In this document: in pieces, positions 34,430-55,836 of the stretch
Numbering within the stretch: position 1 is the first letter of the stretch
Layout of the letters: every line of letters starts with the position of its first letter
Source: Enterocytospora artemiae
Lineage: Eukaryota; Microsporidia
Direction of reading: 5' to 3'
Assembly: GCA_038659295.1 (NCBI GenBank)
Contig: JASNGC010000002.1
Coordinates: forward strand, 62,001 to 126,000
Length of the DNA stretch: 64,000 bases
Translations under genes and position numbers: made by a program
The notes under the pieces: generated by a model
Seen by the model: the letters and a program-made list of their open reading frames with translations, nothing else
Databases searched by the model: none
Told to the model about the DNA's origin: nothing

Positions 34430-34738
34430 CTGAAGGGTGAGCCTAACAAATATTATGTGTTATGATGAAAAAAAATAATTCAACCAAATTGAAATGTGAC
34501 TGATAAGGCTGCTACAAGGATAAATATAATTGCATATTACAGTGAATTCTTAGATAAATATCGAAATCTTTGGGGTTATTCGGCCGCATGAAAGAATCTA
34601 AAATTTGTCAATTTTTCTGCAACGGGATGCAAAGTGTTGTTGTTTTAAACATCACAAGGCAGTGACTATTTATTCAAGGAAATGTTTATTTATAGTTTTG
34701 AAACATGTATATTTAAGAAGATTTGTATGTAAACAACA
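34430..34738. other. Divergent intergenic region with one TGAAAC element
   Basis: Contains the CCC signal of the minus-strand gene at its left edge and TGAAAC at 34699-34704, 34 bases before the next plus-strand ATG. Confidence 0.5.
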
Positions 34739-35536
34739 ATGTCTCCAATTCATACAGTAGTTGAGCTGGTTTTTGCAACTTTTTATGTATTTCGGAAGGT
34801 CTTTGCCAGAAACAGCAAGGAGTCTTTGGGGAAATATGTTCTTATAATCTCCATCATGGCAATGCTAAACCATTATTTACTGATGTATAACTCCGACAAA
34901 TTCGTTGAATATGGCGAATATAGAATTCAGATGTCTAAAAGTGCAGAGTTTGCTAAGAAGTTAAGTGGGATCCTATTGGCTAGTTCAATATTCATGGTGA
35001 ACACCAGTAGCATTAGTCGAATATATGGGTTTGTTCGTATACCAGTTTTGATATATTTGGACAGCATCAGGTACATGATGGATCCAAATGTAATCGTATT
35101 TTTCACAAGACTGATATTTGGAATAGAGATGCTGTTGGGTGCATTTTTAATTCTATTGAACAAGATTTACTTGGCAACAAAGGCAAATCAAGCCAGGAAA
35201 ATGACTAACTTCGATATGCAAAGTGATGCCCAAGAGTATGCCAAACAACCAACTCAAGGAATCAAAAATGATGGAACATTAATGCTTTTAGTTGTGGCAT
35301 ATGCATTCGTTAAATATCTGATGAATCTATTTCAACTACCGTTTGAAATGAACGAAACTAATAAAAATACCATCCTTGAGATTTCTCACATAATCAATCT
35401 TGCCTTATACTTGGTACTTGCAAATTCAATGTGCAAATCAAAGGACAAGCAAACAGTAACAATCAAAAATCCAGATCTGGTATACGAAAAGTGCAATCAG
35501 CACATGAAATCGCTGATAGAATTTCCAGAAGCATAA
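34739..35536 (+). CDS. Multispan membrane protein, unknown
   Basis: A 265-residue protein with about five hydrophobic segments (around residues 5-18, 33-50, 75-95, 118-142 and 180-200, plus one near 222-235) and hydrophilic loops, ending in a charged tail. No signal-type cleavage site. Its Pro-Val-Leu-Ile-Tyr segment faintly recalls TMEM33/Pom33 proteins of the nuclear envelope/ER, but this is only a suggestion. It lacks a CCC signal and instead has a TGAAAC element 34 bases upstream of the ATG, like the secreted-protein genes further right. Confidence 0.65.
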   Translation: MSPIHTVVELVFATFYVFRKVFARNSKESLGKYVLIISIMAMLNHYLLMYNSDKFVEYGEYRIQMSKSAEFAKKLSGILLASSIFMVNTSSISRIYGFVRIPVLIYLDSIRYMMDPNVIVFFTRLIFGIEMLLGAFLILLNKIYLATKANQARKMTNFDMQSDAQEYAKQPTQGIKNDGTLMLLVVAYAFVKYLMNLFQLPFEMNETNKNTILEISHIINLALYLVLANSMCKSKDKQTVTIKNPDLVYEKCNQHMKSLIEFPEA

Positions 35537-35723
35537 TAGATGATTGGTTGAAGAAATTGAAATTAATTATTCGAGATTCATTCAACATCCCCTCTTGTTG
35601 TTTTGCAACATATACTAATTCTAGTTAAGCCATTTAATATCTACACTGCCCATAAGACATATGCACCAATTCATAAGGTGTTAGGATTGTTTTTCAAAAT
35701 TATTTTTTGTTTTTTCACCCTGA

Positions 35724-36383
35724 ATGGAATATACTGATGAAGTTGGGATTTTTAGCCCAGATGGTAGATTGTACCAGGTTGAGTATGCGCAACATGCATC
35801 AACACAAGGATCCACAGTTTGCATAAACATAGTCGGAGATAAATTACGTGTTTTTTATGAAAACAGAATTCCAAGTAACCTTTATATTCCCAACAGAAAA
35901 ATATTTGATGTTAGGAACAATTTTTACATATTATACAGTGGGCTAAGGCCAGATTCCTATTTAATTACACGTCAGGCCAGGTTGATTGCAGCAAATTACA
36001 AATTAAGAACTTCTGAAGAGATTGAAATTGGGGTACTGGCCAGAAAAATTGCAGAATATAAGCAAAAATACACAGTTAACGAGCAAATGAGGCCTCTTGG
36101 GCTCAGGACAGTTTTGTTGGGAATTGAAGACAAGCAGCCAAAATTATTTATAATTGAGGCTGATGGAAACTATGCGGAATACTCCAAATGTGCGATTGGA
36201 TATAAAAGTGACTTATCTATCGATTATCTGTTGAAAAATGATGGAGAGTTCGCTGCACTGAGTGCATTGTTAGAAGTTGTACAAAAGGATTACAAAAAGA
36301 TTGTAGGTTATGATATATCGAGCAACGGCTGCATAGAAATTAACTCTGACGAGATCAAGAGACTAGTTGAGCAACAGATATAG
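35724..36383 (+). CDS. SCL1: 20S proteasome subunit alpha1
   Basis: Alpha-ring subunit of the 20S proteasome. The N-terminal alpha signature GIFSPDGRLYQVEYAQHA is clear. Features favour alpha1 (PSMA6/Scl1): RLYQVEYA, ARLIAANYKLRTSEEIEIGVLARKIAEYKQKYTVNEQMRPLG, aligning with alpha1's ARYEAANWKYKYGYEIPVD...QNAEMRPLG. The 219 residues are shorter than the usual 246. CCC three bases before the ATG (35718-35720 region). Confidence 0.9.
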   Translation: MEYTDEVGIFSPDGRLYQVEYAQHASTQGSTVCINIVGDKLRVFYENRIPSNLYIPNRKIFDVRNNFYILYSGLRPDSYLITRQARLIAANYKLRTSEEIEIGVLARKIAEYKQKYTVNEQMRPLGLRTVLLGIEDKQPKLFIIEADGNYAEYSKCAIGYKSDLSIDYLLKNDGEFAALSALLEVVQKDYKKIVGYDISSNGCIEINSDEIKRLVEQQI

Positions 36384-36496
36384 GAAATAAACTCTAGTGA
36401 AAATTGTTGATTTGTGAATGTGCATAACTACTTCGAATTTTTATCCTTCAATCTTACAACCATAATCGTAAAATCTGATTCTTGTTTGTTATTTTA

Positions 36497-36518
36497 GTTT
36501 CAGGTGTAATTCTGAAAC
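36497..36518 (+). promoter_or_regulatory. Paired GTTTCA element, inverted repeat
   Basis: GTTTCAG, an 8-base spacer, then CTGAAAC: an exact 7-base inverted repeat ending 47 bases before the ATG of the secreted-protein gene at 36566. That gene has no CCC signal. The same hexamer recurs upstream of other genes of this class. Confidence 0.6.
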
Positions 36519-36565
36519 TAAAAATTAGAAACGCCATCATAAAAATAATTTTGTTAGTATAATGT

Positions 36566-38005
36566 ATGAAGCGTATTACTCTTTTAATTTTCTGGACACT
36601 TTGTGGCCTTCATCATTTAAGAACAGGAGATCAATATTTAACAATAGAGAAGAATGAAGGCCATCTAAAGTTAGGAAGTTTAGATAAAGCTTCTAAATTT
36701 TCCTTTGTATATAGATCCAAATCGCAAGATACAAAAAATGATATCCCAGATAAATCTAATATTGTTGTGGGAATAATAGTAAATGGAAAAAATATATTAA
36801 AGGTAAATAACGAAACTGGAGAGATTAAAGCTGTACCATTTGAAACCACTGATGCAAATTATAATTCAGAAACTGGATATGAAGATGATATTTCTGGTAA
36901 CATTTCCACCAAAGATGCTCAATTCGATGTCCATAAACTTGGTACTAGTGGATCAACCTTAAAGAACGGTGATGAAATTAAAATTCATACAGATACGGAC
37001 AATGTGACTATGTTTGAGGGCAATCTTAAAGCAGTAGGTGGCTCTAAGTCTACTGAATTTAAACTAGAGGCTTATGATCCGGCCAAAAAAAAGAATACTG
37101 TTGAAACAAAGGAGGAAACTAATAAGTCGTCAGGTTCTGATGGAAAGAATGATGATAGTAATGGAAATAGCTCCAAGTCATCAGAAATTCTTATAAAACC
37201 TCAGCAAACCAGTGTAAGTGAGCGAGAAGAGCATAATATAATTAATAAAACTACAGAATCACATTCATCGGGAAATTTATCCTCACTTAAAAGGGAAGAA
37301 GATGCAACTGCAGATTTAGTAGCAGAAAAAGTAGTGGAGAAGATGATGATTGAACTAAAGAAGAAAGATACAAGTCTAGAGGTGGACCAAATGAACGAGA
37401 TAGATAATTTAGGATTGCCCAGCAATATAAGAATTCCTTTATCAAGAAAACGAAGTCAGGATAGGGTGGAAGATGATGATTCACAGCCACCACCCAAAAA
37501 AAACAAAATCATGAGGCTTTTTGGTAGACTTCCATTTTCAAAAAACAAGATTTCAAGTCAGAGTCCAATACCACAAGGTGAATTTGAAGAAGAATTTCAA
37601 ACAGAAGAAGATGCTGATTTAGAAAGACCTCCTAAGAAAAGTAAAAACTATCTTAAAAAATTCAAAGACTCAGTCCACCGTCGTCTCCCTTTTTTAGGAA
37701 AAAAGAAACCAAAACCACCAGCAAAATTTAAAGAAGAGTCATCTCTGGATAGTAATGAGGAAGGATATGGTACAAGGGAATCATTTAATGAATATGGGGG
37801 TCAAACTATTCCTGTACCTTCAAGCCCACCCTTACAACAAGCTCCTCCATATCAACTCCAAGTCCCAAGACCAAGACTCCAAGGACCACCACAAATACAT
37901 AAGGGAATGTTCCCTGTGCCTCGTCCCCTCTATCATCCCCCCTATTTTCCTCCTATATATCCACCCATTAATAATGGATATGCTAATCAAATTCCAGTTC
38001 ATTAA
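36566..38005 (+). CDS. Secreted protein with trefoil-like N-terminus and basic/Pro-rich tail
   Basis: A 479-residue protein: signal peptide (MKRITLLIFWTLCGLHHLRTG), a region of about 150 residues with short repeated strands (GDQYLTIEKNEGHLKLGS and following) that resembles the ricin-B/beta-trefoil proteins secreted by microsporidia, a Ser/Lys-rich linker, a coiled-coil-like segment near 245-275, two related basic blocks (MRLFGRLPFSKNK and HRRLPFLGKKK) and a Pro-rich C-terminus (about 405-479). No membrane anchor. Likely spore-wall, polar-tube associated or secreted into the host. Two overlapping ATGs occur; only this one is in frame. Confidence 0.72.
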   Translation: MKRITLLIFWTLCGLHHLRTGDQYLTIEKNEGHLKLGSLDKASKFSFVYRSKSQDTKNDIPDKSNIVVGIIVNGKNILKVNNETGEIKAVPFETTDANYNSETGYEDDISGNISTKDAQFDVHKLGTSGSTLKNGDEIKIHTDTDNVTMFEGNLKAVGGSKSTEFKLEAYDPAKKKNTVETKEETNKSSGSDGKNDDSNGNSSKSSEILIKPQQTSVSEREEHNIINKTTESHSSGNLSSLKREEDATADLVAEKVVEKMMIELKKKDTSLEVDQMNEIDNLGLPSNIRIPLSRKRSQDRVEDDDSQPPPKKNKIMRLFGRLPFSKNKISSQSPIPQGEFEEEFQTEEDADLERPPKKSKNYLKKFKDSVHRRLPFLGKKKPKPPAKFKEESSLDSNEEGYGTRESFNEYGGQTIPVPSSPPLQQAPPYQLQVPRPRLQGPPQIHKGMFPVPRPLYHPPYFPPIYPPINNGYANQIPVH

Positions 38006-38324
38006 GTGTATGTAATAATTCATTATATTCCAGCAGTTTCTTTACGTTAATAATTTGGAAACCACCTCTATATTGAGAGAAACTTGCTTATTATAGCAAT
38101 CCTGAGCAGTATTAATTAGATTTTCGGATAGTTCATAATATTTAAAGTTATTAATAAATCTATAATCAAGAAATTATGATTTTGATAAGTGTATATAATG
38201 CTCAAATCTATGCATCTCAAGGTGTTTACATATATTCATTTCCATATTTGTAAGTCTTCTCTAAAATCTCTTTTGAGATTTATTGCCTTTTGCTCCTTAA
38301 AGTTAACTTTATTTGTCCATCAAT
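38006..38324. other. Intergenic with an inverted repeat
   Basis: AT-rich. It contains AAATCTC-TTTT-GAGATTT (38264-38281), an exact 7-base inverted repeat ending 43 bases before the next ATG, at the same distance as the GTTTCA pairs of neighbouring genes. Confidence 0.5.
38264..38281. repeat. Inverted repeat AAATCTC/GAGATTT
   Basis: Perfect 7-base arms with a TTTT loop, 43 bases upstream of the start of the 719-residue secreted protein. The following bases are not a T run, and the position is 5' of a gene, so a promoter element is more likely than a terminator. Confidence 0.45.
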
Positions 38325-40484
38325 ATGATGACAGCCTTGTTAGGGATTTGTTCAATTATTAAGATTGTATTAGCTACAAATGAAGGGGATATTATTTATA
38401 AACCACTTTATTTGAAACTTTCTAAACCTGGTGTGAACACTTGCTGTTCGTCAGATCCTTTAATAACATGTTGTTTCCACAAACTTAGTGGTATTTTGGG
38501 GCCAATAGACTATAGAAATGAAGACAGATGCATTGCGAATCAATATCTGCAGGCTATTGAGCCAAACAAGAAAGACATCTACTATGCGCCTTTTGGGATT
38601 GCATTCTGCCCATATAATCGCATTCAAAAAAGTTACGTTGAACAAGCATATATGATAGATGGATGTGCTGCATGCCTAGAGAAGCTGCCACTTATTTCCA
38701 AAATAAAAGACTTGCAGTTTCTAAGCAATATGAATCGATTGATTGAAGTTAATCAAAAAGTACTATTGAGGTATTTTAACATCAAGAAATCTGTAAATTT
38801 TTACCAAAATATGAAAAACGAGATTATGATCTTGAAAGAATATGGCAATATAACCGATAAGTGTGCTGCTAGATGGTTTATTTCAAAGAGAATTCTTATA
38901 CTGGGCCAATGTAATGACAAATTAATAGCTATTGATGTAGAGAATTTAAAGATTATTCCATGGAACAGATTCACAATGGATGCAACAGTAGACACAATTA
39001 CCTTAGACAATCTGCACAAGTATATTCCTGAAAGTATATTTGATCAGTATTGGGTCAGCGAAACTAATGCTATCCATGAGGAAATCCCAACTGTGAATAA
39101 GTATAGGAGTGAAAAAATAATACCAGTATTGAAAGATGAGCATGATGTTTCAAACATTGTTTTTCAAAAATCTTCTGTCCCTGACAATTCCAAATCAGAT
39201 TCTGTTCTTATAAACACAGATAAAATTTGGAGTTTTTATTCAGAACAAATGATTCTGAAGGTTGCCAATTTGATATTACGAAATGATGAAGGTTTAGGAG
39301 ATCTGGGTACAGAAAATAGCAACTATTGTTGTGAGTTTAAAGAGAATGAGCAAAATATTGTCTATGCAAGTTTAATCAAAGATAATACATCCAGAAAATC
39401 AAAAACCGGAAATGAATTTATTGGAAATTGCTTCGCACAAAACTATATTCAAAATGAAGTTACAATCTGTATGAATTGTAAAAATAAGATTAACATATTG
39501 TTCGTACCAATCTTGGAAATAATCTATCGTTTTAATATGAACTGCACGGTTTCACTGATTGGTATGAAGCATTGCAGGTTAATCTTTAATGATTTAAGAG
39601 AGGTCTTAGGAGTAGAAAATGTAATGATAGAGGAATCAATAAAGAAATTTCTTTTCCTGGGACTCCAGAATAACCATTACATATTCTTTGATTTAGTTGA
39701 AGAGCAATCATATCCATTATCTGTATTGTCTGATATTAATGAAATAAGGGCTTTAGAAATTGACAAGTTAAATAATATCGATTGTAGAAAGACGATTACT
39801 AAAATTATCAGCTCTACATCTAACCTTAGTGTAGTCAACGACAAAATGCCAATTAGAATGAAATTTGGATTTGAAAGAGTCATCCCTAAGTTGATTCCAA
39901 ATGAAAAAGGACTTTATGCAAAGTTTGTGGATAGGAAAGAATTGAATGATTTGATAGTTTTGGAAACTGGAGTTGATGTTTTTGAATTTTCAAGTGAACT
40001 ATATGATAAAAAAGAAAGCACTGAATTTATAATATCATCTTCTATGGAAAATAAAGACTTGATATATTCACCGTCACATACCACGTCAAAAATAAAATTA
40101 CCTAGAAAAGGTATTTTAAAACACAATAAAAGCGGTGAAATATCAAAGAGACCAAGGAAATCAGTAAAATTTGTAGATATATCCGATGAAAATTTAGAAA
40201 ATGTTGAAGATACTTCTTTTGATGAAAATTTAAATGCAAATAACCCTGAGGTGGTTACATACCATCCAGAGGTAAAATATTCGGAAAGTGAAAAACAAAT
40301 CAAAAACCCACATAAAAAAGATCAGTGGTGTGATGGTAAGAAACCAATAGTCCAAACTTCCAAAAATCCAATTTCGAGATCCCTTTCAAATTTTTGGACT
40401 TTGAAAGTGTTTATCTTGGCTATAATAGGCGGAGTAATAATAACACTACTATATGTGTATAAAGTTCAATATATTAGACATTAA
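38325..40484 (+). CDS. Large Cys-rich type-I membrane protein, unknown
   Basis: A 719-residue protein with a signal peptide (MMTALLGICSIIKIVLA), a Cys-rich first 100 residues (CC...CC, HCFxKL-type pairs, CAAC), a second Cys pair (CMNC) around residue 385, a long region rich in Lys/Asp/Ser (about 530-690) and one C-terminal transmembrane helix (VFILAIIGGVIITLLYVY) followed by a short basic tail. No recognised domain. The frame opens at a TTG four codons earlier; ATG at 38325 is chosen because it starts the signal peptide. Same plan as the protein at 16682-17794, though shared ancestry is not shown. Confidence 0.75.
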   Translation: MMTALLGICSIIKIVLATNEGDIIYKPLYLKLSKPGVNTCCSSDPLITCCFHKLSGILGPIDYRNEDRCIANQYLQAIEPNKKDIYYAPFGIAFCPYNRIQKSYVEQAYMIDGCAACLEKLPLISKIKDLQFLSNMNRLIEVNQKVLLRYFNIKKSVNFYQNMKNEIMILKEYGNITDKCAARWFISKRILILGQCNDKLIAIDVENLKIIPWNRFTMDATVDTITLDNLHKYIPESIFDQYWVSETNAIHEEIPTVNKYRSEKIIPVLKDEHDVSNIVFQKSSVPDNSKSDSVLINTDKIWSFYSEQMILKVANLILRNDEGLGDLGTENSNYCCEFKENEQNIVYASLIKDNTSRKSKTGNEFIGNCFAQNYIQNEVTICMNCKNKINILFVPILEIIYRFNMNCTVSLIGMKHCRLIFNDLREVLGVENVMIEESIKKFLFLGLQNNHYIFFDLVEEQSYPLSVLSDINEIRALEIDKLNNIDCRKTITKIISSTSNLSVVNDKMPIRMKFGFERVIPKLIPNEKGLYAKFVDRKELNDLIVLETGVDVFEFSSELYDKKESTEFIISSSMENKDLIYSPSHTTSKIKLPRKGILKHNKSGEISKRPRKSVKFVDISDENLENVEDTSFDENLNANNPEVVTYHPEVKYSESEKQIKNPHKKDQWCDGKKPIVQTSKNPISRSLSNFWTLKVFILAIIGGVIITLLYVYKVQYIRH

Positions 40485-40815
40485 ATTTTTAATGGATGTA
40501 ATACAAGATTAATATTTTTCCTATTAAGAGTGTAGATACTAGAAATGCTGATTACAGCAGAATTATTGAATAGCATCATAAAATAACAATATTTTAACAA
40601 ACATTTAAAATTCTAAAGAGTTTCTACTCAGAGACGTTTGAAAAGTCCTTAAAATTCATTGTGAGGTCTATAATTATTTCTGCTTCTACGAAATAGAGGT
40701 TTCTACAGTTACCACATACTCTTGCAAATAATATTATCAATATGCTTTTTATGTTTCATTGATTCCCTGTACACTCTGAAACATAACTTTAAAAACATAA
40801 CATTCTGAACAAGGA
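40485..40815. other. Intergenic with paired GTTTCA element
   Basis: AT-rich; the only notable sequence is the inverted repeat at 40751-40784. Confidence 0.5.
40751..40784 (+). promoter_or_regulatory. Paired GTTTCA element, inverted repeat
   Basis: ATGTTTCA (40751-40758) and its exact reverse complement TGAAACAT (40777-40784), 8-base arms with an 18-base spacer, ending 31 bases before the ATG at 40816. The gene has no CCC start signal. Confidence 0.6.
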
Positions 40816-42129
40816 ATGTATTTTTTTGACTTACTGACTTTCGCTATTGCAATCTATACTAAAACGAATATCAGTAGGATAGTATTACATGCACAAGACA
40901 AGTTTGTAAAAATTAATGAAGGTAAGCTATCTATAGGGGAGCCGGGAGAACACCCCAGTATCTTTAATGTCATAAAAATTAAAGAAAAAAGATTCCAAAT
41001 TCAAGTAGCAGATAGTGGACTAAATTTAACTACTAATCTTTCGCTTCATAATCCCAAAGACAATAGCGAGAAAGGCAATAAAGCTAAAATATGGAGATTT
41101 GTGAAAAGGGGAGGTATCACTGAACTTCAAACAGAGGATGGGAAATGTATGATGGTACTAGAAAATGGAAGTTTAGGTATTCAAGAATGTCCAAGTAATT
41201 CAGAAGCTAAAGGTGGTAATAGACAAGTTATTGAAGTAAGTAGACTCCATGATGAAAATTCAAAGGCGAATACATTGAAAAATAAGAAAGACGGAGAGAT
41301 TGGACTTAGTGGCATAAAATCAATATTAATACCCTCATCACGTTCTCCTTATACGCAAGCACCTCCTCCTCACTTACAGACACCATCTCCTACTTATTCA
41401 GATGAATCTCCCCCTTCCTACACACCAGGACCCCCTCCTCCCTACACACAGATACCATCTCCTTACTTACAGACACCATCTCCTACTTATTCAGATGAAT
41501 CTCCCTCTTCCTACACACCAGGACTCCCTCCTCCCTACACACAGACACCATCTCCTACTTATTCAGATGAATCTCCTCCTCCCTACACACCAGGATCCCC
41601 TCCTCCTTACACAGAGGAATATAATTATGGTTTTCTAGATCCTTATTTACCATACTATGGATACTATTCCCCTATCTTACCTCCTTATTCGTCAAAAGCA
41701 AGTGACAGTGAGGAAGACGATAGTAGTGAAGAAAATGATGAAGGTTATGAATCAGAAGAATTAGAGACTGCCAGTAGTATGGTCAAACCTCTGAGTTATT
41801 ATTATCCTGGTCAACCAACGCTTTATAATGGTGCAGAAATGATAGTTGCGGATAAAAAAGCAGCCAAGAAAGCAGCAAGAAAAGCAGCCAAGAAAGCTAT
41901 TAAAAGAAAGCTTGATGCATATCACATGGAAGAACAAGATAAAAAAATACAAGAAATAGCACTTAACCAAAAGATTCTGGAGAGAAAGCCTAATGAGCCC
42001 AATAAGCCTAATGAGCCCAATCATCCTAATCCTACCCCATCCAAAAAGAAAGGTGGATTATTTGGTGGCTTACCAGGAATGACTCCTGCAGGTATAGCTG
42101 CAAATGCAGCTGAGGATGCAATGGGTTGA
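40816..42129 (+). CDS. Secreted ricin-B-like protein with Pro-rich repeats
   Basis: A 437-residue protein: hydrophobic N-terminus (MYFFDLLTFAIAIYT, signal peptide), a beta-trefoil-like region to about residue 140 with a ricin-type motif (TEDGKCMMVLENGSLGIQECPSN), then Pro/Tyr/Ser-rich tandem repeats (units containing TPSPTYSDESPPSYTPG) at about 187-268, an acidic patch, a Lys/Ala helix (KAAKKAARKAAKKAIKRKL) at about 350-370, a short Asn/Glu/Pro repeat (NEPNKPNEPN) and a Gly-rich hydrophobic end. This mosaic suits an extracellular structural or adhesive protein such as a polar-tube or spore-wall component; it is not a recognisable PTP1 or PTP2. Confidence 0.75.
   Translation: MYFFDLLTFAIAIYTKTNISRIVLHAQDKFVKINEGKLSIGEPGEHPSIFNVIKIKEKRFQIQVADSGLNLTTNLSLHNPKDNSEKGNKAKIWRFVKRGGITELQTEDGKCMMVLENGSLGIQECPSNSEAKGGNRQVIEVSRLHDENSKANTLKNKKDGEIGLSGIKSILIPSSRSPYTQAPPPHLQTPSPTYSDESPPSYTPGPPPPYTQIPSPYLQTPSPTYSDESPSSYTPGLPPPYTQTPSPTYSDESPPPYTPGSPPPYTEEYNYGFLDPYLPYYGYYSPILPPYSSKASDSEEDDSSEENDEGYESEELETASSMVKPLSYYYPGQPTLYNGAEMIVADKKAAKKAARKAAKKAIKRKLDAYHMEEQDKKIQEIALNQKILERKPNEPNKPNEPNHPNPTPSKKKGGLFGGLPGMTPAGIAANAAEDAMG
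41377..41616 (+). repeat. Tandem minisatellite in the secreted-protein gene
   Basis: Three copies of a unit beginning CAGACACCATCTCCTACTTA, at 41377, 41470 and 41542 (spacings 93 and 72, both multiples of three). They encode the TPSPTYSDES repeats in frame. The unequal spacing shows that units have been gained or lost in whole codons, so length variation between isolates is likely. Confidence 0.85.
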
Positions 42130-42507
42130 CATTGACCTAATTAACATTATGATCTAAATATCTATGCAGTTGTATAGGAATAAATGATCTTTAATTAAGA
42201 ATTGAATTACATTAGTTGAGATTTTGCAGAAATGCATTTTATTTAAATATCCTCTGGATTGGTATTCCTAATAAGATTTAATATTCAGGAGAAACTTAAC
42301 CCCAGAATATGTCCATGGTGTAATTATCTACCAAGAAAATCTTTTTAAACTAATCTGTAAAAACAGTCATTGTAGCAAGTATTATGGGGTTGTAGACTAA
42401 TTATAAGCAAGCTTTAATTCTGGAAATTGTAACCCATCCAGTTTGTTTTGAATGTGTTTCATTCGTGTTTCAGCTTTTTTTTTAAAAACTCTTTAGAATT
42501 TGAGCCA
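42130..42507. other. Intergenic with two GTTTCA copies
   Basis: AT-rich. Two direct GTTTCA copies lie at 42456-42461 and 42467-42472. Confidence 0.5.
42456..42472 (+). promoter_or_regulatory. Paired GTTTCA element, direct repeat
   Basis: GTGTTTCA occurs twice, 11 bases apart (one helical turn), ending 35 bases before the ATG at 42508. No CCC signal is present before this gene. Confidence 0.6.
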
Positions 42508-43911
42508 ATGTTCCAATTACTTTGCTTATTACTTCTTAAGGGATATTCAAAAAAGGTTGCGATTTCTCCATATAAAGTAGGTAGACCAGAATACCTCAAT
42601 CACGATTTGGATCTAAATAGAAAATATAAGCAAAATGTCCCGTTGTGGACAATGGAATTTGATGGGTCGTTTTTTAGATTCCGAGCAGGTAGGAGATATA
42701 TGAAACCTCACGGAAAGTATGTTAAAATAGCTGACGGAGGCGATGACTTGGAAAAGATTGATAGGGATGAGCGAATACGGTCCATAGAAAGAATGCTGAA
42801 AACTAGGCAGGGAATAGATGACGATAGTAGTGAGAACAATGATAGGCATCAGCCGAGAAAATCCACGTCATCCACCAACAGGGAAAGACCAAGCAGTTCA
42901 ACAAGGTCGTCAAGAGATTCTGGAGATGAGAATCCGGTTGTTATAAGTTCTGGAAATTCAGAGCTAAAGGGATCCAGCTTGAAAAATAATCCACCACTAA
43001 AATCAGATAATCTGCAAAGCATGATAACAGAAGCAGTCGAGAAAATATTGGAAAAGAAGCTCTCTATAAAGAATAAAGGGGCAGTTTCAAAGGAGAGCAA
43101 TGATAAGACAAAGTTGTCCAACCTACTAGAGAAGTTGCCAGTACCTGATAAGTCAGGTAGTTCTGGAAACAAATCTAGTTTGATAGAACAATCAAGTTTA
43201 GTGAAATCTTCAAACGACAAATCAAACCTATTGAATCCCTCCAGTATTGTTAATGAAGTTAAGGATTCCATTTCAAAGAGTCAATTAACATCAATGTCAG
43301 AATCAATGAGATCAAGCTTAGGTAGCCAGTATTATAATGAAAATGCAAACAATAATTCCCACAACATTGGATTCGATTTCAATGTCTTTCCAGTATTTAT
43401 CAGTAAGATAGATAAGAAAAGTGTAATTGTGTACAAAGGAAAATGTATGGATCACAACCTAAGATTGGAAATATGTGACTTTGAAGACTGGTGGGATCTG
43501 GAAAATAGATTCTACTGGGCCATATACTCTATGGGAGATATCGAAAATATAGAATTGATGAAGAAAGCCGTAATTGATACAGAAAGGAAGAACTACAGGT
43601 TCCACGAGAAAAATAGGGTGGATCTGAACAGATGTCCGAAAATTGAGTTTGACTCCAGTAGTTATGAAGATGAGGAAAGGGCTGTAGGAAGTTCTAGGGA
43701 GATATATCCGTTAGACAGTATGGCATATTCAAATGGGGGTGCCACTTTCCAGGTTCCAGTACAACAACAGGTCATACAACAACCTATGGGAACAGTGACT
43801 GGATTTGAGACTCAGCAGATTCAGCCAAGAAAGGTACTACAGGGCAACACAGGAACTATTTTTTCAGGAAATTTTTTGGAGGCAATAGAAAATGCTGTGA
43901 ATAATAGATAA
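42508..43911 (+). CDS. Secreted protein with ricin-type C-terminal region
   Basis: A 467-residue protein: signal peptide (MFQLLCLLLLKGYS), an N-terminal conserved-looking stretch (DGSFFRFRAGRRYMKPHGKYVKIADG), a long Ser/Asn/Lys-rich linker (about 80-300) and a C-terminal region with a ricin-like QxW-type pattern (VYKGKCMDHNLRLEICDF ... FYWAIY) and Cys further on (VDLNRCPKIEF), ending in a Gln-rich tail. The ATG at 42508 begins the signal peptide; the 20 upstream codons of open frame would hide it. Its C-terminal Cys region resembles the downstream frame at 46573-46854. Confidence 0.7.
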   Translation: MFQLLCLLLLKGYSKKVAISPYKVGRPEYLNHDLDLNRKYKQNVPLWTMEFDGSFFRFRAGRRYMKPHGKYVKIADGGDDLEKIDRDERIRSIERMLKTRQGIDDDSSENNDRHQPRKSTSSTNRERPSSSTRSSRDSGDENPVVISSGNSELKGSSLKNNPPLKSDNLQSMITEAVEKILEKKLSIKNKGAVSKESNDKTKLSNLLEKLPVPDKSGSSGNKSSLIEQSSLVKSSNDKSNLLNPSSIVNEVKDSISKSQLTSMSESMRSSLGSQYYNENANNNSHNIGFDFNVFPVFISKIDKKSVIVYKGKCMDHNLRLEICDFEDWWDLENRFYWAIYSMGDIENIELMKKAVIDTERKNYRFHEKNRVDLNRCPKIEFDSSSYEDEERAVGSSREIYPLDSMAYSNGGATFQVPVQQQVIQQPMGTVTGFETQQIQPRKVLQGNTGTIFSGNFLEAIENAVNNR

Positions 43912-44370: not shown

Positions 44371-45057
44371 TTAATATTGTCCCTTCAGAGCTATATTGTT
44401 TTTTCTACCCATTTCAGGCTCCATGCTCTTGTCATTCAGATCAAACAATGTTGATTCAATATTAGTAATTTGGTATGTTTCATCAGGATAGCTCTGATGA
44501 TTTAGTGTTTTTAAGACGGTATATTCTGGAATGGCAGACCAAACTTGGTTTCTTTCAAGAGTACAAGGCTTGAATGAAATATACTTTCTGTTGCTCCTAT
44601 CTTTTGGTTGAATAGAGTCTTTGTTCGATTTTTCGTCTGCTGAAGCACTAAGTCCATCATCCATGGTCATACACTCATTATTTGAAATTATTTGAAATGG
44701 ACTTTTGATATTCTTATTTTTCTGATCAACAAATTTTAGAAACAATTCCGATATGGCATTCTGATCTTCCGTAACTTGCAAAGTTCCTGAGTTTTTCACC
44801 GATCTATATTTTTTATCCACGTCCTTTAGCACTAAGTGGCCACTTTTATCCATGTGAAACAGGAAAAGTCCTTGACCTATGGAATTTATAGTTAAAGGAG
44901 CCACATGAATTTCCCTGTTTTTTGGATTAACAATATCCTCATTTCCAAACACTAAAAAATCGTTTGGAAATTGACTATTCATGATCACAGCTGGCGTTTC
45001 CATAAGATTTCTAGGCAAAATAGAAAAAATCAGAGAAGTGAAGAGCATCACCAGCAT
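44371..45057 (-). CDS. Secreted ricin-B-like protein
   Basis: A 228-residue protein with a signal peptide (MLVMLFTSLIFSILP) and a beta-trefoil-like body with strand repeats (GQGLFLFHMDKSGHLVLKDVD) and a ricin-type segment (NNECMTMDDG ... FKPCTLERNQVWSAIPEY), in which the Cys-Cys spacing and the Q-x-W are the family hallmark. No anchor. The only member of the main island on the minus strand. Start at the ATG of the signal peptide; upstream TTG ignored. Confidence 0.72.
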   Translation of the reverse strand: MLVMLFTSLIFSILPRNLMETPAVIMNSQFPNDFLVFGNEDIVNPKNREIHVAPLTINSIGQGLFLFHMDKSGHLVLKDVDKKYRSVKNSGTLQVTEDQNAISELFLKFVDQKNKNIKSPFQIISNNECMTMDDGLSASADEKSNKDSIQPKDRSNRKYISFKPCTLERNQVWSAIPEYTVLKTLNHQSYPDETYQITNIESTLFDLNDKSMEPEMGRKNNIALKGQY

Positions 45058-45094
45058 TGAAAACAAACAAAACAATGATTATAAAAGCCAGATG

Positions 45095-45119
45095 AAACAG
45101 TGTAATAAACTTGAAACAA
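45095..45119 (-). promoter_or_regulatory. Paired GTTTCA element, direct repeat
   Basis: On the minus strand GTTTCA occurs at 45119-45114 and 45100-45095, the nearer copy ending 37 bases before the ATG at 45057. The gene lacks a CCC signal. Confidence 0.55.
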
Positions 45120-48613: not shown

Positions 48614-48706
48614 ATTAATGAAATATGCAAGTCATCCTATAATTCCGGATTTTTTCAATGTCCTATTGCTTGATTTTATAACTCTTCTGATGTATATCAA
48701 ATATTT

Positions 48707-48758
48707 GTTTCATCGTTGTAATATTGTATCTAATTGGTATGCTTTGGATTTTGTTTCA
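48707..48758 (+). promoter_or_regulatory. Two GTTTCA elements
   Basis: GTTTCA at 48707-48712 and 48753-48758, the second ending 39 bases before the ATG at 48798. The gene has no CCC signal. Confidence 0.5.
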
Positions 48759-48797: not shown

Positions 48798-49178
48798 ATG
48801 CTACTCATGTACTTTTTCAATAATTTTTGTCTTATTAATGCTCTTGACCCCATGAGTCCTGATGGTGTTGAAAACCCGACAATTTCGACGGGTTCTTCCT
48901 CATCCCAATACAAATTGCCAAATCATCTGGCCTCACTAAATCATGACACATATTCTCTTCCTCCAGTTCAACATGATGGAACCATAACATACATTCTGAA
49001 TGGAAAAACTACTCACTATGATCCGCCTGTAAGTATCACACATGTTCCAATATTTTTCCCCGACAAATTTAAATTTTATCGTAGATCAGATCTATCAGCA
49101 CATCCAGACCATGTTATTGATTCCAGATGGACTGCCAACTATAGACATCATGACAATAACATGCATGTGTTAAATTAG
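48798..49178 (+). CDS. Small His-rich secreted protein
   Basis: A 126-residue protein with a short signal-like N-terminus (MLLMYFFNNFCLINA) and a hydrophilic, strand/turn-rich body with many His (about 11, including HHD and NNMHV near the end), Pro and Tyr and no Cys after the signal. No domain recognised. Histidine-rich secreted proteins are found among microsporidian spore-coat and polar-tube components, but that is only an analogy. The paired GTTTCA elements upstream place it in the same regulatory class as the other secreted genes. Confidence 0.58.
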   Translation: MLLMYFFNNFCLINALDPMSPDGVENPTISTGSSSSQYKLPNHLASLNHDTYSLPPVQHDGTITYILNGKTTHYDPPVSITHVPIFFPDKFKFYRRSDLSAHPDHVIDSRWTANYRHHDNNMHVLN

Positions 49179-49274: not shown

Positions 49275-49406
49275 ATGGCAGTGGGCCGAGACATATTAAA
49301 ATATTTAAGGTATCTAAATGGTAAATTTCTTCCCTCCGAGACATCAGCCCTAAATATAGAAAAAATTATGGCCGATTTTATAAAGTATATTTCTATAAGT
49401 ATTTAG
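49275..49406 (+). other. Short open frame of unclear status
   Basis: A 43-codon frame from an ATG (MAVGRDILKYLRYLNGKFL...), open upstream for about 30 more codons without an ATG and preceded by TTTTCAG. Composition is protein-like. It lies between a secreted-protein gene and uS8 and ends eight bases before the uS8 stop. Could be a relic or an exon, but no partner was found. Confidence 0.25.
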
Positions 49407-49413
49407 TTTATTT

Positions 49414-49797: not shown

Positions 49798-49978
49798 TTG
49801 GGGTGAAAACGGATTGAAAAAATTTTACAAAATTTTATGAAAATTCAATGGTTAGCTAGATTATTAAGAATGCACACCACTTAAATTCATCCAGTTATTT
49901 GGGCTGGCCTCTTCCGAACAATCATATGCTACTATGTTTTTGATACATTAATTTTCCACAAAATCTTTACAATTCTAT

Positions 49979-52351
49979 TTATTTAGTCTTGGCTTCAAAT
50001 TCTTTCAAGATATCTTCCTTTAACTCCTCTAGCTCCATAAAGGTTATACTCGTGGCATCAAATTCACCTTTCTCATCCTTTTTTGAAGAATCGCTCTCGG
50101 TTTTACGAGTATCTCCCCAAGAAAAATCATCAAAATGCCAAAAGGCATAGACAGGCAAGAAGAAGTTCCATACAGGTAAGTTAACAATGTAGATCAGGAG
50201 CCATCCGAAATATTGAAGCTGAAAGGTCGTCAGTGCTATCAATACAGCTGGAAGCCCTAATATGAGAGCCAGCATCACGAGTGGAATCCATGCAGGCTCT
50301 CCAACGAATGCCTTTACCAATAAAACTCCAGTAAAGAATATTGCAGCCGGGAGGGTTAACGTTCCAAAAAGCTCAAAAAGTATAATAAACTGCATGGAGA
50401 AACAGTTTGTCCCACATAATTTATCCACCAAAACCAACTCAAACATATTATGAATCGTGGAATTTATCCATCTTCTTCGTTGTGACTGTAGAGTCTTATA
50501 ATCATTGGGAACACAGGTTGAACATTTTGCAGCTGCCAAAAATATCAGTTTTCTTTTATAGAAGTTTTTCATCAGCAGAGTGGTCAGGTATCTGTCCTCT
50601 CCCAGGTGCAGCAAATTCTGTTCGTGTAGTGTTTTGGCCTCGAAGACCGAATATGGATTTACAATTATGGGGTTTGCTAAAATTGGAACACATGTCCATG
50701 TTTCGTCATAAATCTTTTTATCAGAATGGTTTTTAATGTTACCATGCTGATCTGTTACTATCTTGATTCTATAAATACAAAAGCATCCTGGAAGACATGT
50801 TACCCCTCCAAAGACACTTTCAAAATTCTTGGCCAGGTGGTGACTAATATAATACTCAAATACCTGCAATGCGGTTACCCACGATTCACATTTATTAGAT
50901 ATCTGTGTCTCCCCACATAGCCCCATGATCTTGTTGTCTTTCTCAAATGCAGAAACCATCTTGACCACGGCGTCAGGCTCAACAATGGTATCTGCATCTA
51001 CCATCAACAAAATTTCAAAGTCCTCAGGACTAAATTTGTCGAACATCCGCTTCATTTTTCGATATATTTCACAATCTAAGTCACTCATACGATCGCTGTA
51101 TAGAATTTTGGAAAAGAAGGACATGAGAATGACCTGGCTATCCCTCTTCCCACGATTACCTGCCTTTACAACCTCTCCAGGGTTTCCTACTTTGTTAATT
51201 ACCATTATTCTAGATTTCTTACCATTGTGCTTATACCACCCTGTATGGACTTTAGCTCTATTAAATCTTTTGTGACCGGGAGCAAGAGATACATAGGCCA
51301 TGGGCTCCACATCCTGCTCAATGTCACAAATATCCAATAAGATTTGTGGGGTTGACTTCTCTTCCCCAGCACCCTTAATTTGGCCATCTGCAATAACAAT
51401 TATTAGCTTGTAGTCATCATCATATTCTAAGGCAGTTAATGAATCTAAGGTGGATCTCAGACCTGCTTCTCCTTCAGAATAGCATGCAACCTGTAGAATT
51501 ACGGGGGTATTACCACGAATAGAAACAGTTCTTTTCTTCTCATGCCAAGCATAGAATAATGCTAGGAAAAAGCGGGTTAGGATTAGTCCAAATATAATTA
51601 CAGTGCCCATCCAAAGTACGATATCTCCAAGTATACAGCCATTAGATTTAAATGATACTTCCCCAGAATAAAACGAATCTTTAAAGCATTCGATGCAATC
51701 GCTATCATACTTCTCCAAATGGGTTTTACTTGCTGCAGATCCCCTAAAATCTTGAATGAATTGACTCAGGCCCTCTTCATCGCAATAGCTTGGATCATAC
51801 ACCTTATTGTCAATCACAATAAATCCATTGTCTTGGATGTAACTCCAATCAAAGTACACCTTATCTCTCTCTTCAAAATTGCTTTCCGAAAGAGTTCCTG
51901 ATGAGATCTGGTGGCCAAATGCTCTTTTACAGGCTTCAGACCTCTTCCTAAACAAATGAGTGCTATTCTCCAGTGGATACTCTTTGTTTGTTCCATACAA
52001 CTTACCATTTGCAACAATGATATTGTCTTCAAAGTTTTCAGGTTTTAGTTTATTGAAAATCAAAATCGTGGATGTGTTACATATAAATATATTCATGAAG
52101 AATGTGATTCCAGCCAGAAAAAAACACGCAAGAGAAATCAGCATACAGAGTGTTACCTTTTCTCTCCATGCCTGTCGTTGTTCAGGTGTTTCCTTCTTTG
52201 CAAAAATCCTAATCATACAATCAGGTACTAAGAATGTCATAACTCTGGAAAATTTGTACCAAAATGATGGACCACTTGCTGCTTTTGTTTTTGGTGGAGC
52301 AGGGAGGGTGGTTCTACTACTATTTCTTATGAACTCACCTTGGTTTGGCAT
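49979..52351 (-). CDS. CHS: Chitin synthase
   Basis: Membrane glycosyltransferase (GT2) making chitin of the spore wall from UDP-GlcNAc. The 790-residue protein has two N-terminal membrane segments (LISLACFFLAGITFFMNIFI and VLWMGTVIIFGLILTRFFLALFYA), the catalytic domain with ADG (IVIADGQ), VDADT (451-455), GCF-type CLPGCFCIYR, EDRYLT and QRRRW (624-628), and three or more C-terminal membrane helices. The N-terminal myosin domain of some fungal enzymes is missing. The start is the ATG directly after CCCCC (GGGGG at 52352-52356); the open frame continues 16 codons upstream. Confidence 0.97.
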   Translation of the reverse strand: MPNQGEFIRNSSRTTLPAPPKTKAASGPSFWYKFSRVMTFLVPDCMIRIFAKKETPEQRQAWREKVTLCMLISLACFFLAGITFFMNIFICNTSTILIFNKLKPENFEDNIIVANGKLYGTNKEYPLENSTHLFRKRSEACKRAFGHQISSGTLSESNFEERDKVYFDWSYIQDNGFIVIDNKVYDPSYCDEEGLSQFIQDFRGSAASKTHLEKYDSDCIECFKDSFYSGEVSFKSNGCILGDIVLWMGTVIIFGLILTRFFLALFYAWHEKKRTVSIRGNTPVILQVACYSEGEAGLRSTLDSLTALEYDDDYKLIIVIADGQIKGAGEEKSTPQILLDICDIEQDVEPMAYVSLAPGHKRFNRAKVHTGWYKHNGKKSRIMVINKVGNPGEVVKAGNRGKRDSQVILMSFFSKILYSDRMSDLDCEIYRKMKRMFDKFSPEDFEILLMVDADTIVEPDAVVKMVSAFEKDNKIMGLCGETQISNKCESWVTALQVFEYYISHHLAKNFESVFGGVTCLPGCFCIYRIKIVTDQHGNIKNHSDKKIYDETWTCVPILANPIIVNPYSVFEAKTLHEQNLLHLGEDRYLTTLLMKNFYKRKLIFLAAAKCSTCVPNDYKTLQSQRRRWINSTIHNMFELVLVDKLCGTNCFSMQFIILFELFGTLTLPAAIFFTGVLLVKAFVGEPAWIPLVMLALILGLPAVLIALTTFQLQYFGWLLIYIVNLPVWNFFLPVYAFWHFDDFSWGDTRKTESDSSKKDEKGEFDATSITFMELEELKEDILKEFEAKTK

Positions 52352-52356
52352 GGGGG
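52352..52356 (-). promoter_or_regulatory. CCCCC start signal of chitin synthase
   Basis: CCCCC abuts the ATG on the minus strand and decides the start 16 codons inside the open frame. The same rule trims the starts of SEC11, eL43, the kinase, 6PGL, SUN, PUS3 and eS19. Confidence 0.65.
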
Positions 52357-53123
52357 TAATTTGTTTGTTAAATTTAGAGGTAGTATATATAATAAACAAA
52401 TGATTTAATCCAAAAGGTAAAGTAAAAAAATAGCCCCTGAAATCTCACATAAATTTGGGAAAAATCCACCCACGATATATTATAATGGACTCAGTGTATA
52501 CAAAGAGTTTTTAATAAGTTGGTGCTATAAACAATATTTTAAATCAATACATCATATGAGATCAAATAGTATTAAAAGATTCTTGTTCCTTGAACCTTTG
52601 GATATGAAGGATAAGTAAGTAACTTGAAGATACTTTTAATTTGATAATAGGCACTATTTAAAACCTCTATAAGAGGATAAAAATATTTTATATTATTGAG
52701 ATGTTGTGATTATTGAAAAGCCCTATAATTTATGGATGAGTATGAAAACAATCACCGCCATGTGTCTCATCTTTAATTTAAACTTGCAAAAAATCCTCTT
52801 ACTAAGTAGATTCCTCTGTCAGAATCAAGATTACTGGATAATCAAGATGAAACTTTAATATGTTTTATTTAAATTTTCATAAGTGCATATATATTACAAC
52901 CAAATATTTTTAAGAAGATATAATCTTTCTTAATATAATCGACAAACCATTTTCCTGTGGATATGTCCTCTCCTTGAATCAAATGATAAAATGATTTTAA
53001 AAAACAGCATCAGCCCGATGGGTAATTACCAAGGTCAAGGACAAAGATAATGTAAATTCCTCCTCCATATTGCTGCGGAGAGAAATTGGGATGACGCGAA
53101 TCTTGATAAATCTTTAGAATTTA
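52352..53123. other. Intergenic, possible decayed coding relic
   Basis: Mostly very AT-rich. A locally GC-richer block at 52997-53113 is open on the minus strand for 39 codons without an early ATG and ends in SLTLVITHRADAVF, recalling the H-loop end of ABC ATPases; it may be a relic or chance. On the plus strand a fragment GGATGACGCGAAT recalls U6 snRNA but the ACAGAGA box is missing. Confidence 0.35.
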
Positions 53124-54071
53124 TCACTCACCTTTCCGTATCTTGAAAATTCGTCTATAGCTGTTAAATGTTTTGGTAGGCAATTTTTCCCTCTCTAAAT
53201 CTTCATCCTGGAGAACCTCAAATTGATTGATCTCTACATGAAAAGGCGATTTGTAGTCTGAGTCTTTCACTCGATTCCAATCCACCCCATGAAAAAAAGG
53301 GTGTTTCATAATTTCTTCAGTTCCATTAAAACCCAGTCTATTACATCTATTCTTTGCAAGCAATCGTATCAATAGGTCTTTTGCCTCTGAAGAAAGTCCA
53401 TAAGGAATTTTCACTTCTTCACTTATTACTTTCTTGTAAATTAGCTGTGGTACTTCAGCATAAAATGGGGGCTCTCCCAAGAGCATTTCGTATATCAGGC
53501 ATCCCAAGGACCAGTAGTCTGTAACTGTAGAATCACCATTGCCCAGCAATTTTTCCGGTGCCATGTACTCTGGAGTACCACATAGAGTAAATACATTCTC
53601 GTTCATTCTCGTTGCAAACCCAAAGTCTGCTAATTTGATGTGCCCATTTTCAGTTAACAAAATATTTTCGGGCTTTAAGTCCCTATAGAGAATTCCTCTG
53701 TCATGCATATACTTAAGGGCAATGATAATTTCACCAGCGAAGAACTGTACCGCAAACACTGGCAAGGTGTTGTATTTTTTCAGATAGTAGAACAACTCCC
53801 CACCCTTAACATATTCCATCACGATAAATATGTGCTCTTTCGTATGAATTGTATTTAAAAATTTTACAATAAATGGGCAAGAACGAACCTCTTCCAAAAT
53901 TGAAGATTCGTTGACAATACTGTCCATCTGTCTGTTGAGCTTCAGAGATAAGATTTCCATCTGCTTAATTGCAAAATAACTGTCGTTTCTCTTATATTTA
54001 GCCAAAAACACCTTTCCAAATGCCCCAGATCCAATAATACGTAAAAATTCAAAATCATCTGGTGATAGCAT
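53124..54071 (-). CDS. AGC-family protein kinase, PKA catalytic-like
   Basis: A 315-residue Ser/Thr kinase, complete for catalysis: Gly loop GSGAFGK (14-20), ATP Lys36 (AIK), catalytic Asp131 (YRDLKPEN), DFG at 149-151, activation-loop Thr162 in FTLCGTPEYMAPE as in PKA, and the AGC Asn/Arg elements (RLLAKNRCNRLG). The start is the ATG directly after CCC (GGG at 54072-54074), giving only about 10 residues before the kinase fold; the open frame extends 24 codons more. The C-tail is present but the PKA-type terminal FxxF is not clear. cAMP dependence is not shown. Confidence 0.88.
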   Translation of the reverse strand: MLSPDDFEFLRIIGSGAFGKVFLAKYKRNDSYFAIKQMEILSLKLNRQMDSIVNESSILEEVRSCPFIVKFLNTIHTKEHIFIVMEYVKGGELFYYLKKYNTLPVFAVQFFAGEIIIALKYMHDRGILYRDLKPENILLTENGHIKLADFGFATRMNENVFTLCGTPEYMAPEKLLGNGDSTVTDYWSLGCLIYEMLLGEPPFYAEVPQLIYKKVISEEVKIPYGLSSEAKDLLIRLLAKNRCNRLGFNGTEEIMKHPFFHGVDWNRVKDSDYKSPFHVEINQFEVLQDEDLEREKLPTKTFNSYRRIFKIRKGE

Positions 54072-54919
54072 GGGTACATCCGTAAAATTTTTTATGTGCC
54101 ATTTTACACATTTTAAACAGGCTAAATCAAAAAACCAGCACATTTGTTTGATTCAGCTTAATACTAACGTCTAAATATCTTCTGGCACGGGTCTGTAATT
54201 CATGAAATTTACTAATACTTTTTTCAAAATCAATTAAATAATTTATTTAGTATGAGAGTTTAATTAATTATCTTATTTTCAAAGTCTCTAATGACAAAGT
54301 GATGTGTGTTTGTATTATCTTTAATATATTCACTTTTATATTAAAATAAAAATTATTTTTTTAATATTCAAAAAACGAAGGAACTCCAGATATCAATTTC
54401 ATAAAGTAATAGATTTGTGAATAAATCAATATCTAATTACAAGATATGTGTTGGTCTATAAGTTAAAACAATTCCTCAAAAGCAAATATAGTAAATTTTC
54501 AAATTCTTTATTAGAAAATTTATTGATAGAATTAAAATGGTTTTGTTTACTTTCCACGAAATATTGCTGAATTTTTAACACCAATGTTGAAACACTTCCT
54601 CACTGATGGATCAGATAAAACAATATATATTGTGTTTGATGCTGCCCTAGTACCAAAAACCACTATCATCTTTATCTCATCAACTCATTTTCATTTAGCT
54701 TAATGAATTTCTCTTGAAATGGTATGTACTGCTGTAATCAAGGTTGACAACTATTTTTTCGATAATCCGCAGTATGTCATTGGATTTGAAAATGTTATAT
54801 TGCTTATTTGTTATAATTAAAAAAGCATATTACAAAATACTCAAAAAAACTAATTGTTCTGGAAACAAGAATTAAAATAAGCTCTATACATATTTACAAC
54901 ACTAAACTGAACAAATTTA
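54072..54919. other. Intergenic, nothing supported
   Basis: A long AT-rich spacer of 848 bases between two minus-strand genes. No tRNA, snRNA core or short frame with a start signal found. One TGAAAC near 54593. Confidence 0.45.
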
Positions 54920-55594
54920 CTAGGTATTTGTTGGCTTCAATTCTGTTTTCACCTGATAAACTGTGGTATATTTCTTGTTTATTAGTCTCCTTATGCTTAA
55001 GTGAGGCTCTGAAACAACCTTTGGCATTCCATTTTTAAATGGTAGAATAAAATAAATCTTGCCAATACAGTTGTTTATAAACTTAATCGTGGTAGTAACT
55101 CTTTTTGGAATTTTATCCTCTACACTCACCGAAATAACATACCTTTCACTTTGAAGGCTATCGGATTCTGGCCAAAGAGAACAAATATGGCCATTTTCAC
55201 CGATACCTAGCAGGGCAACATCTATTAAAGGGCTGGTGTTGGTATTCTTATCCTGTCCTGCTACAGCTTCGTTTCTCAAAGTTTCTTCGTAAAGCTCATC
55301 TGCATTGTCCAAATGTGTTTCTATTGGGAACACCTCCGCACTTCTAATTAGATTTAAAAATACCTTAGAACCCTCATAGTTCAAATTGTCCCTGTCACAT
55401 CTTTCATCTGCATAAAATATTTTCCACTGTGAAGAATTAAGTTCACTGTATCCTGAATAATTTAGCATATCTAAAAGAGAACCTCCAGAAATCATCAGGT
55501 TACACCTGCTATTATCAAACTCTTTGAGAATATTAAACAAATCGAGCCTTAGATTATCTGAATTAATTTGTGTGTTTTTGTTGTCCAGGAACAT
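54920..55594 (-). CDS. SOL1: 6-phosphogluconolactonase
   Basis: Second enzyme of the oxidative pentose phosphate pathway, hydrolysing 6-phosphogluconolactone. The 224-residue protein contains the sugar-isomerase-like fold signatures NLMISGGSLLDML, FYADERCDR and the family-specific LLGIGENGHICSLWPE, and a C-terminal ISVSVEDKIPKRVTTT segment. Length is typical (about 240). The start is the ATG after CCCC (GGGG at 55603-55606), nine codons inside the frame opened by a TTG. With PGI it shows that glucose-6-phosphate is used in both pathways. Confidence 0.92.
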   Translation of the reverse strand: MFLDNKNTQINSDNLRLDLFNILKEFDNSRCNLMISGGSLLDMLNYSGYSELNSSQWKIFYADERCDRDNLNYEGSKVFLNLIRSAEVFPIETHLDNADELYEETLRNEAVAGQDKNTNTSPLIDVALLGIGENGHICSLWPESDSLQSERYVISVSVEDKIPKRVTTTIKFINNCIGKIYFILPFKNGMPKVVSEPHLSIRRLINKKYTTVYQVKTELKPTNT

Positions 55595-55810
55595 CGATTT
55601 TAGGGGTACTTTTCTTAACAACCTGATTAATCAGATATTTATGTGGTTTATATCTATGAACTACAAAGCAGAAGAATTTAAGGAATATAAAATCTAAGGT
55701 TGTATTAACACCTTTTTGCCAAAATATAAGGAGTATTGCATTTATTGATTTTTTAAATTAACCAATGTTTATTTGGGCTTAATATAAAAATTCACTGCGA
55801 TTAAACAGCT

Positions 55811-55836
55811 GTTTCAAATAATTTGATTTGTGAAAC
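55811..55836 (+). promoter_or_regulatory. Paired GTTTCA element, inverted repeat
   Basis: GTTTCA at 55811-55816 and its exact reverse complement TGAAAC at 55831-55836, ending 33 bases before the ATG at 55870. No CCC signal occurs before this gene. Confidence 0.6.

Follow-up and report, generated by a model that had tools for sequence, protein, structure and literature searches.

In yeast, the transcription factor Ste12 binds the heptamer TGAAACA, known as the pheromone response element (PRE) (PMC7017024; PMC12712937). One element is bound weakly and two are bound cooperatively in varied orientations, with a preference for spacings of 3 or 4 bases plus turns of ten (PMC12712937). In a plant pathogen, Ste12 binds a TGAAACA-bearing promoter stretch of a secreted-effector gene (PMC10789715). 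In Microsporidia, CCC, GGG and AAATTT signals have been described close to gene starts (PMC2803860; for Nosema, PMC3726280 and PMC11592040). Here we describe PREs (TGAAACA, or TGTTTCA on the opposite strand) in the microsporidian Enterocytospora artemiae. The analysis started from a stretch of 64,000 nucleotides (contig JASNGC010000002.1, positions 62,001 to 126,000; hereafter the window), which is C2:62001-126000 in a genome of 3,015,070 bases on 5 contigs (C1-C5), and was extended to the whole genome. We consider it likely that these elements are binding sites of the Ste12-domain protein encoded in this genome, and that they drive a class of promoters without the CCC start signal.

The arrangement in E. 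artemiae shares with the yeast and fungal Ste12 regulon the same seven-base word, usually two or more copies of it per promoter, and a STE-domain protein. As with the double elements of yeast (head-to-tail with 4 bases between them, or H-T 4, tail-to-tail with 3, and others), several orientations and spacings occur, including 4 and 14; the pair before the window gene at 42508 has the H-T 4 arrangement itself (PMC12712937). As in the plant pathogen, secreted proteins are among the putative targets (PMC10789715). Unlike in the yeast and fungal regulon, the putative targets include genes of the microsporidian infection apparatus, and in the paired genes the ATG is preceded at 30-50 bases by a copy that adjoins a TATA-like box. 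The PREs resemble the microsporidian start signals in being short and start-proximal in a compact genome (PMC2803860; PMC3726280; PMC11592040), but they stand before genes without CCC and are located farther upstream.

A sequence-only reading of the window had noticed 13 copies of the hexamer GTTTCA/TGAAAC upstream of seven genes without a CCC signal, and all 13 are where it placed them. Eleven extend to the full heptamer, while both copies before the gene at 36566 read TGAAACT (window genes are named by position). The distances from the nearest hexamer to the ATG had been given correctly for five of the genes (34 bases at 34739, 47 at 36566, 35 at 42508, 39 at 48798 and 33 at 55870) and need correction for two: the gap is 33 rather than 31 at 40816, where 31 is the distance of an octamer and not of the hexamer, and 35 rather than 37 at 45057. 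From base composition, 0.48 hexamers would be expected in 7 x 100 bases, in agreement with the earlier estimate of less than one. Over the whole window the hexamer shows no enrichment (45 observed, 55.4 expected); the signal is therefore positional. The only two genes with a CCC signal that had been seen to carry a copy within 100 bases were found again: 13363 (at 55 bases, an exact TGTTTCA) and 28659 (at 86 bases). The earlier list leaves out an eighth gene, 59387-60637 on the minus strand, which has no CCC at its first ATG and a copy 76 bases upstream. The exact heptamers form four pairs in the window, with gaps of 18, 4, 12 and 14 bases.

The whole genome contains 27 exact PRE pairs with a gap of 1-30 bases. 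They lie at 26 loci, all of which we inspected, 4 in the window and 22 outside it; the two PREs before the gene at 48798 fall outside this range of gaps. Five pairs are head-to-head, nine tail-to-tail and thirteen direct, as against 2, 1 and 2 (total 5) for the reversed-pattern controls, and 209 permuted heptamers gave 107 pairs in 324,000 bases, or 4.8 per word genome-wide. Seventeen of the 26 loci have an open reading frame (ORF) of at least 100 amino acids (aa) whose first ATG follows a copy at a distance of 30-50 bases, some of these ORFs being incomplete at the edge of the examined stretch; the same holds for 5 of the 107 permuted-word pairs (binomial P = 5e-17). The 30-50 zone was the one named in the sequence-only reading, and the scan bears it out beyond the window, where 13 of 22 loci fit (P = 1.7e-12). 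Widening the zone to 12-60 bases left the P values at 8e-13 for all loci and 2.5e-9 outside the window.

Genes with paired PREs avoid the CCC signal, defined as CCC within 15 bases of the ATG. They were compared with a motif-blind sample of 26 stretches of 10 kb, which holds 167 genes (46 without CCC and 121 with it). Twenty of the stretches belong to C1 and six to C2-C5, so that C1 is over-represented, and the sample includes 0 of the 26 pair loci. The counts exclude starts less than 100 bases from a stretch edge, frames open at their 5' end, ORFs of less than 100 aa and those that overlap a longer ORF by more than 60 bases. Starts were assigned by a CCC-preferring rule in the sample genes and by the first ATG in the target genes, and the CCC count was repeated under both rules; the CCC-preferring rule misplaced 42508 and 48798 to internal starts, which biases against the finding. 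None of the 17 paired-PRE genes has CCC at its first ATG, compared with 109 of the 167 sample genes (P = 7e-8). Outside the window the count is 0 of 13 (P = 3e-6), and with early in-frame ATGs allowed it is 2 of 17 versus 121 of 167 (P = 1.3e-6). The anticorrelation with CCC that had been expected is thus present, and position and CCC counts agree with the proposal of a second class of promoters, marked by elements at -30 to -50 and by the avoidance of CCC. The blind sample itself shows the same tendency at 20-60 bases before the start: GTTTCA occurs before 7 of 46 genes without CCC and 2 of 121 with it (P = 0.0019), and the exact heptamer before 3 of 46 and 0 of 121 (P = 0.02).

The paired genes are also biased toward hydrophobic N-termini. 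By a Kyte-Doolittle screen (9-residue mean of at least 2.0 in residues 2-36), 12 of the 17 have an N-terminal hydrophobic segment, compared with 34 of the 167 sample genes (P = 4e-5). Outside the window the count is 9 of 13 (P = 4e-4; P = 0.0023 against the 10 of 46 sample genes without CCC). At cut-offs of 1.8, 2.2 and 2.5, P for all 17 genes is 3e-5, 0.0024 and 0.0022, and for the 13 genes outside the window it is 2e-4 at 1.8. A Pfam scan of all 17 genes, several of them as partial frames, gave four matches above the family cut-off. Among the paired-PRE genes are polar tube protein 2 (locus L039, E 1.4e-28), a subtilisin with an N-terminal hydrophobic segment (L025, E 4.1e-9) and a proton-ATPase subunit c, probably of the V-type (L038, E 1.3e-8); the gene at 55870, earlier called a zinc transporter, indeed belongs to the CDF family. 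At L036 (C2:144680-146300), three GTTTCA copies stand in a row before a membrane ORF whose tetraspanin match is below the cut-off. Five of the seven blind-sample genes that lack CCC and carry a copy were scanned: they comprise a GT15 mannosyltransferase (L048, E 6.6e-100), a kinesin (L007, E 3.9e-65), a gene with an EamA-like match below the cut-off (L007) and two without a family. The secreted-looking products of 40816-42129 and 42508-43911 have no homologue at E ≤ 0.01 among 5.8 billion sequences.

The end of a Pro-rich ORF (L039:1209-1607; C3, about 609.2-609.6 kb) with no Pfam match directly precedes polar tube protein 2 on the same strand. By the known order of the PTP1 and PTP2 genes, it may be PTP1. 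A second subtilisin-like gene was seen at C3:726482-726793 and a chitin deacetylase-like gene at C2:375860-376168.

A candidate factor is encoded close by. A profile search of the contigs gave one STE-domain match in the whole genome (C2:157750-158073, E 3.6e-54), in an ORF about 31 kb past the end of the window (hmmscan E 1.9e-53). The match to STE (PF02200) scores 180 bits against a curated cut-off of 25 and aligns residues 51-158 of the ORF with positions 2-109 of the 109 in the profile. There are 1684 homologues at E ≤ 0.001, and the 120 matches listed include Ste12-named proteins of Encephalitozoon, Nematocida, Enterospora, Ecytonucleospora and Vairimorpha. In an alignment of 13 sequences (one a fragment) 19 columns are invariant; in one of 34 homologues 53 are, 51 of them within the STE match. 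By these sequence features, the ORF belongs to the Ste12 transcription factor family. Ste12 of filamentous fungi typically ends in C2H2 zinc fingers, which are not known from the yeast proteins; none was found in this ORF, where STE is the only Pfam family at E ≤ 0.01, and fingers are not needed for membership. The likely start is Met22, as three close homologues have their first residue at the corresponding position. The ste12 gene itself has no CCC and carries a single TGAAACA 64 bases before this probable ATG. A Ste12 label was already given in a microsporidian expressed sequence tag set in 2008 (PMC2474625). The homologues, together with the CCC signals (PMC2803860), point to a microsporidian genome.

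We infer that this protein binds PRE pairs in any relative orientation, with one copy 30-50 bases before the start codon. The pairing agrees with the earlier suggestion of a dimeric-factor site, as copies in twos are what a dimeric or cooperative factor would use. It is unlikely that the element, though a genuine promoter element, is bound by some other factor, such as a forkhead protein or the homeodomain protein at 7801, and matches the Ste12 word by coincidence. The window does contain the homeodomain gene, which the sequence-only reading had put forward as the factor and in which PF00046 was confirmed, and the link between Ste12 and the site is drawn from sequence. However, TAATTA, the typical homeodomain core, is not enriched (0 copies in the 57 non-CCC genes of sample and window combined, 5 in the 154 CCC genes), and neither is GTAAACA (0 and 2). 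In the same genes, exact TGAAACA stands out among its single-base variants, with 10 copies in non-CCC genes and 1 in CCC genes (by position, that of 13363); the variants TAAAACA, TGAAATA, TGAAACT and TTAAACA have 6 and 8, 5 and 4, 3 and 2, and 3 and 2 copies, respectively. When the genome encodes a conserved factor, an accidental match to all seven bases of that factor's site would be improbable. We set the 7801 protein aside as the regulator: nothing found links it to the element, a Ste12-domain protein is present, and the fungal relatives of the latter bind exactly TGAAACA.

An AT-rich run, in many cases TATA-like, separates the PRE from the ATG. The highest AT content, 0.86 in 20 PRE genes and 0.81 in 121 CCC genes, is found at -20 to -30, and words of the TATAAA/TTTAAA type at about -35 to -20 number 0.5 per PRE gene and 0.16 per CCC gene. 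This layout can be read as an activator site, a TATA-like box and a very short leader. The narrow distance to the ATG, the intervening TATA-like box and the avoidance of CCC would also suit a core promoter element used by the general transcription machinery in non-CCC genes. We think this very improbable, since 39 of the 46 non-CCC genes in the blind sample have no copy, and a core element would not be expected in every orientation and frequently in two copies, as is the case here. It is extremely unlikely that a motivated reader singled out a mere chance cluster in one window. The window is indeed richer than the rest, for with 2% of the genome it has 4 of the 26 pair loci, but the loci outside it repeat the position and the blind sample repeats the CCC avoidance.

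Several observations weigh against Ste12-driven promoters of this kind, or limit the link with secretion. Nine of the 26 pair loci lack a fitting position: five are inside ORFs (L027, L029, L032, L033 and L042) and four elsewhere (L026, L035, L037 and L040), with the copies at L035 located 62 and 88 bases before a CCC start. There is no fixed rule for the spacing or orientation of the PREs. GTTTCA ranks first among 120 permuted hexamers in the non-CCC genes of the blind sample, but the next word has 6 copies to its 7, and among all hexamers, with the CCC genes as background, it is only 8th, behind words that are mostly C/G-rich and have low counts; the enrichment in the blind sample is therefore modest on its own. 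The Kyte-Doolittle screen is no trained signal-peptide predictor, and the bias of the 13 genes outside the window is weaker at stricter cut-offs (P = 0.025 at 2.2 and 0.008 at 2.5). At a cut-off of 2.5, a copy is found in 3 of 20 hydrophobic and 6 of 147 other genes of the blind sample (P = 0.077, not significant) and in 1 of 3 and 5 of 41 in the window (P = 0.36). The secretion link thus comes from the paired genes: the association with secreted products claimed from the window holds for these and is less firm for single-copy and blind-sample genes. Not all putative targets are secreted: exceptions are L023 and L031, according to the screen, the zinc transporter and, in the blind sample, the kinesin. 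Conversely, 38325, 45996 and 60964 have a hydrophobic N-terminus by eye and no copy within 120 bases, and 16682 looks secreted yet has CCC. A wall gene, chitin synthase (49979-52351, PF03142, E 1e-198), is of the CCC class and has no PRE within 120 bases.

Table 1. PREs, TATA-like boxes and the ORFs downstream of them in the window (distances in bases; positions counted from the first base of the window).
Feature	Coordinates	Strand	Remarks
Single PRE (TGAAACA on +)	34699..34705	-	33 before ATG 34739
ORF, 265 aa	34739..35536	+	Membrane protein by eye; no Pfam match
Variant PRE pair, GTTTCA and TGAAAC inverted repeat	36497..36518		Both TGAAACT; nearest 47 before ATG 36566
ORF, 479 aa	36566..38005	+	N-terminal hydrophobic segment by eye; no Pfam/NCBIfam match
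Tail-to-tail PRE pair, TGTTTCA-18-TGAAACA	40752..40783		Nearest 32 before ATG 40816
TATA-like TTTAAAAA	40788..40795	+	Between PRE and ATG 40816
ORF, 437 aa	40816..42129	+	N-terminal hydrophobic segment; Pro-rich stretch
Direct PRE pair, TGTTTCA-4-TGTTTCA	42455..42472	+	Nearest 35 before ATG 42508
TATA-like TTTAAAAA	42481..42488	+	Between PRE and ATG 42508
ORF, 467 aa	42508..43911	+	N-terminal hydrophobic segment
Direct PRE pair, TGTTTCA-12-TGTTTCA	45093..45118	-	Nearest 35 before ATG 45057
ORF, 228 aa	44371..45057	-	N-terminal hydrophobic segment; no Pfam match
Two PREs, TGTTTCA	48706..48758	+	Starts 46 apart; nearest 39 before ATG 48798
ORF, 126 aa	48798..49178	+	N-terminal hydrophobic segment by eye; no Pfam match
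Tail-to-tail PRE pair, TGTTTCA-14-TGAAACA	55810..55837		Nearest 32 before ATG 55870
TATA-like TATTTAAAAA	55839..55848	+	Between PRE and ATG 55870
CDF zinc transporter	55870..57060	+	PF01545 (E 4.8e-47), PF16916

In the proposed mechanism, Ste12 at a site just upstream of the TATA-like box would activate genes that have no CCC start signal. The PRE class probably serves a specialised phase, such as the building of the infection apparatus or of the parasite surface, because its members tend to be secreted or membrane proteins, polar tube protein 2 and the subtilisin among them. For the spore-forming stage suggested in the sequence-only reading, the support is indirect and comes from polar tube protein 2 as a putative target. 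What would control Ste12 itself may differ from the fungal case. A DNA pattern for the activation loop of mitogen-activated protein kinases (MAPK) had no match in the genome with up to 1 mismatch, which is weak evidence, as divergent kinases escape such a pattern and there was no positive control. Profiles for Kar4 (MT-A70, PF05063) and Tec1 (TEA, PF01285) had no match either, but 14 control genomes were equally silent. Encephalitozoon cuniculi lacks STE-family kinases, and the available part of the work on it lists no MAPK homologue (PMC2078597); if this absence holds in E. artemiae as well, the upstream signal must differ from the fungal one.

The PRE site, the Ste12 factor and the CCC signal were each known separately, and joining them in Microsporidia appears to be new. 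In the literature covered, mainly titles and abstracts with few subscription journals, we found no paper that ties Ste12 or TGAAACA to microsporidian promoters, and no microsporidian factor tied to both a site and a gene set; what the accessible texts give are predicted motifs or signals of a general kind near the start. In PMC2803860, a search for the words TGAAAC and GTTTC gave no hit. In the accessible parts of PMC3726280 and PMC11592040, the motifs named are only C-rich, TATA-like, AAATTT and GGG, with two of the three Nosema apis MEME motifs not spelled out. A proposal drawn from predicted cis-elements of serpin genes in Nosema bombycis likewise places fungal-type regulators on microsporidian effector genes; as far as that source could be consulted, it differs in proposing NDT80, RIM101, REI1 and UGA3 for one family, and not Ste12 (PMC13303414).

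Our analysis may bear on how Microsporidia control their infection machinery. More tentatively, Ste12 may be an ancestral switch for infection-apparatus and surface genes across Microsporidia, freed from the MAPK cascade and perhaps activating itself. The mating and invasion regulator of free-living fungi would then have been retained in a reduced genome, a scenario that we regard as possible rather than probable. The PRE could also help gene finding, by placing starts that have no CCC. If the assignment of the PREs to Ste12 is correct, one factor, one site and a target list that includes polar tube protein 2 would make an experimentally tractable system, and a fungal mating and invasion circuit would have persisted although its usual signalling cascade was probably lost.

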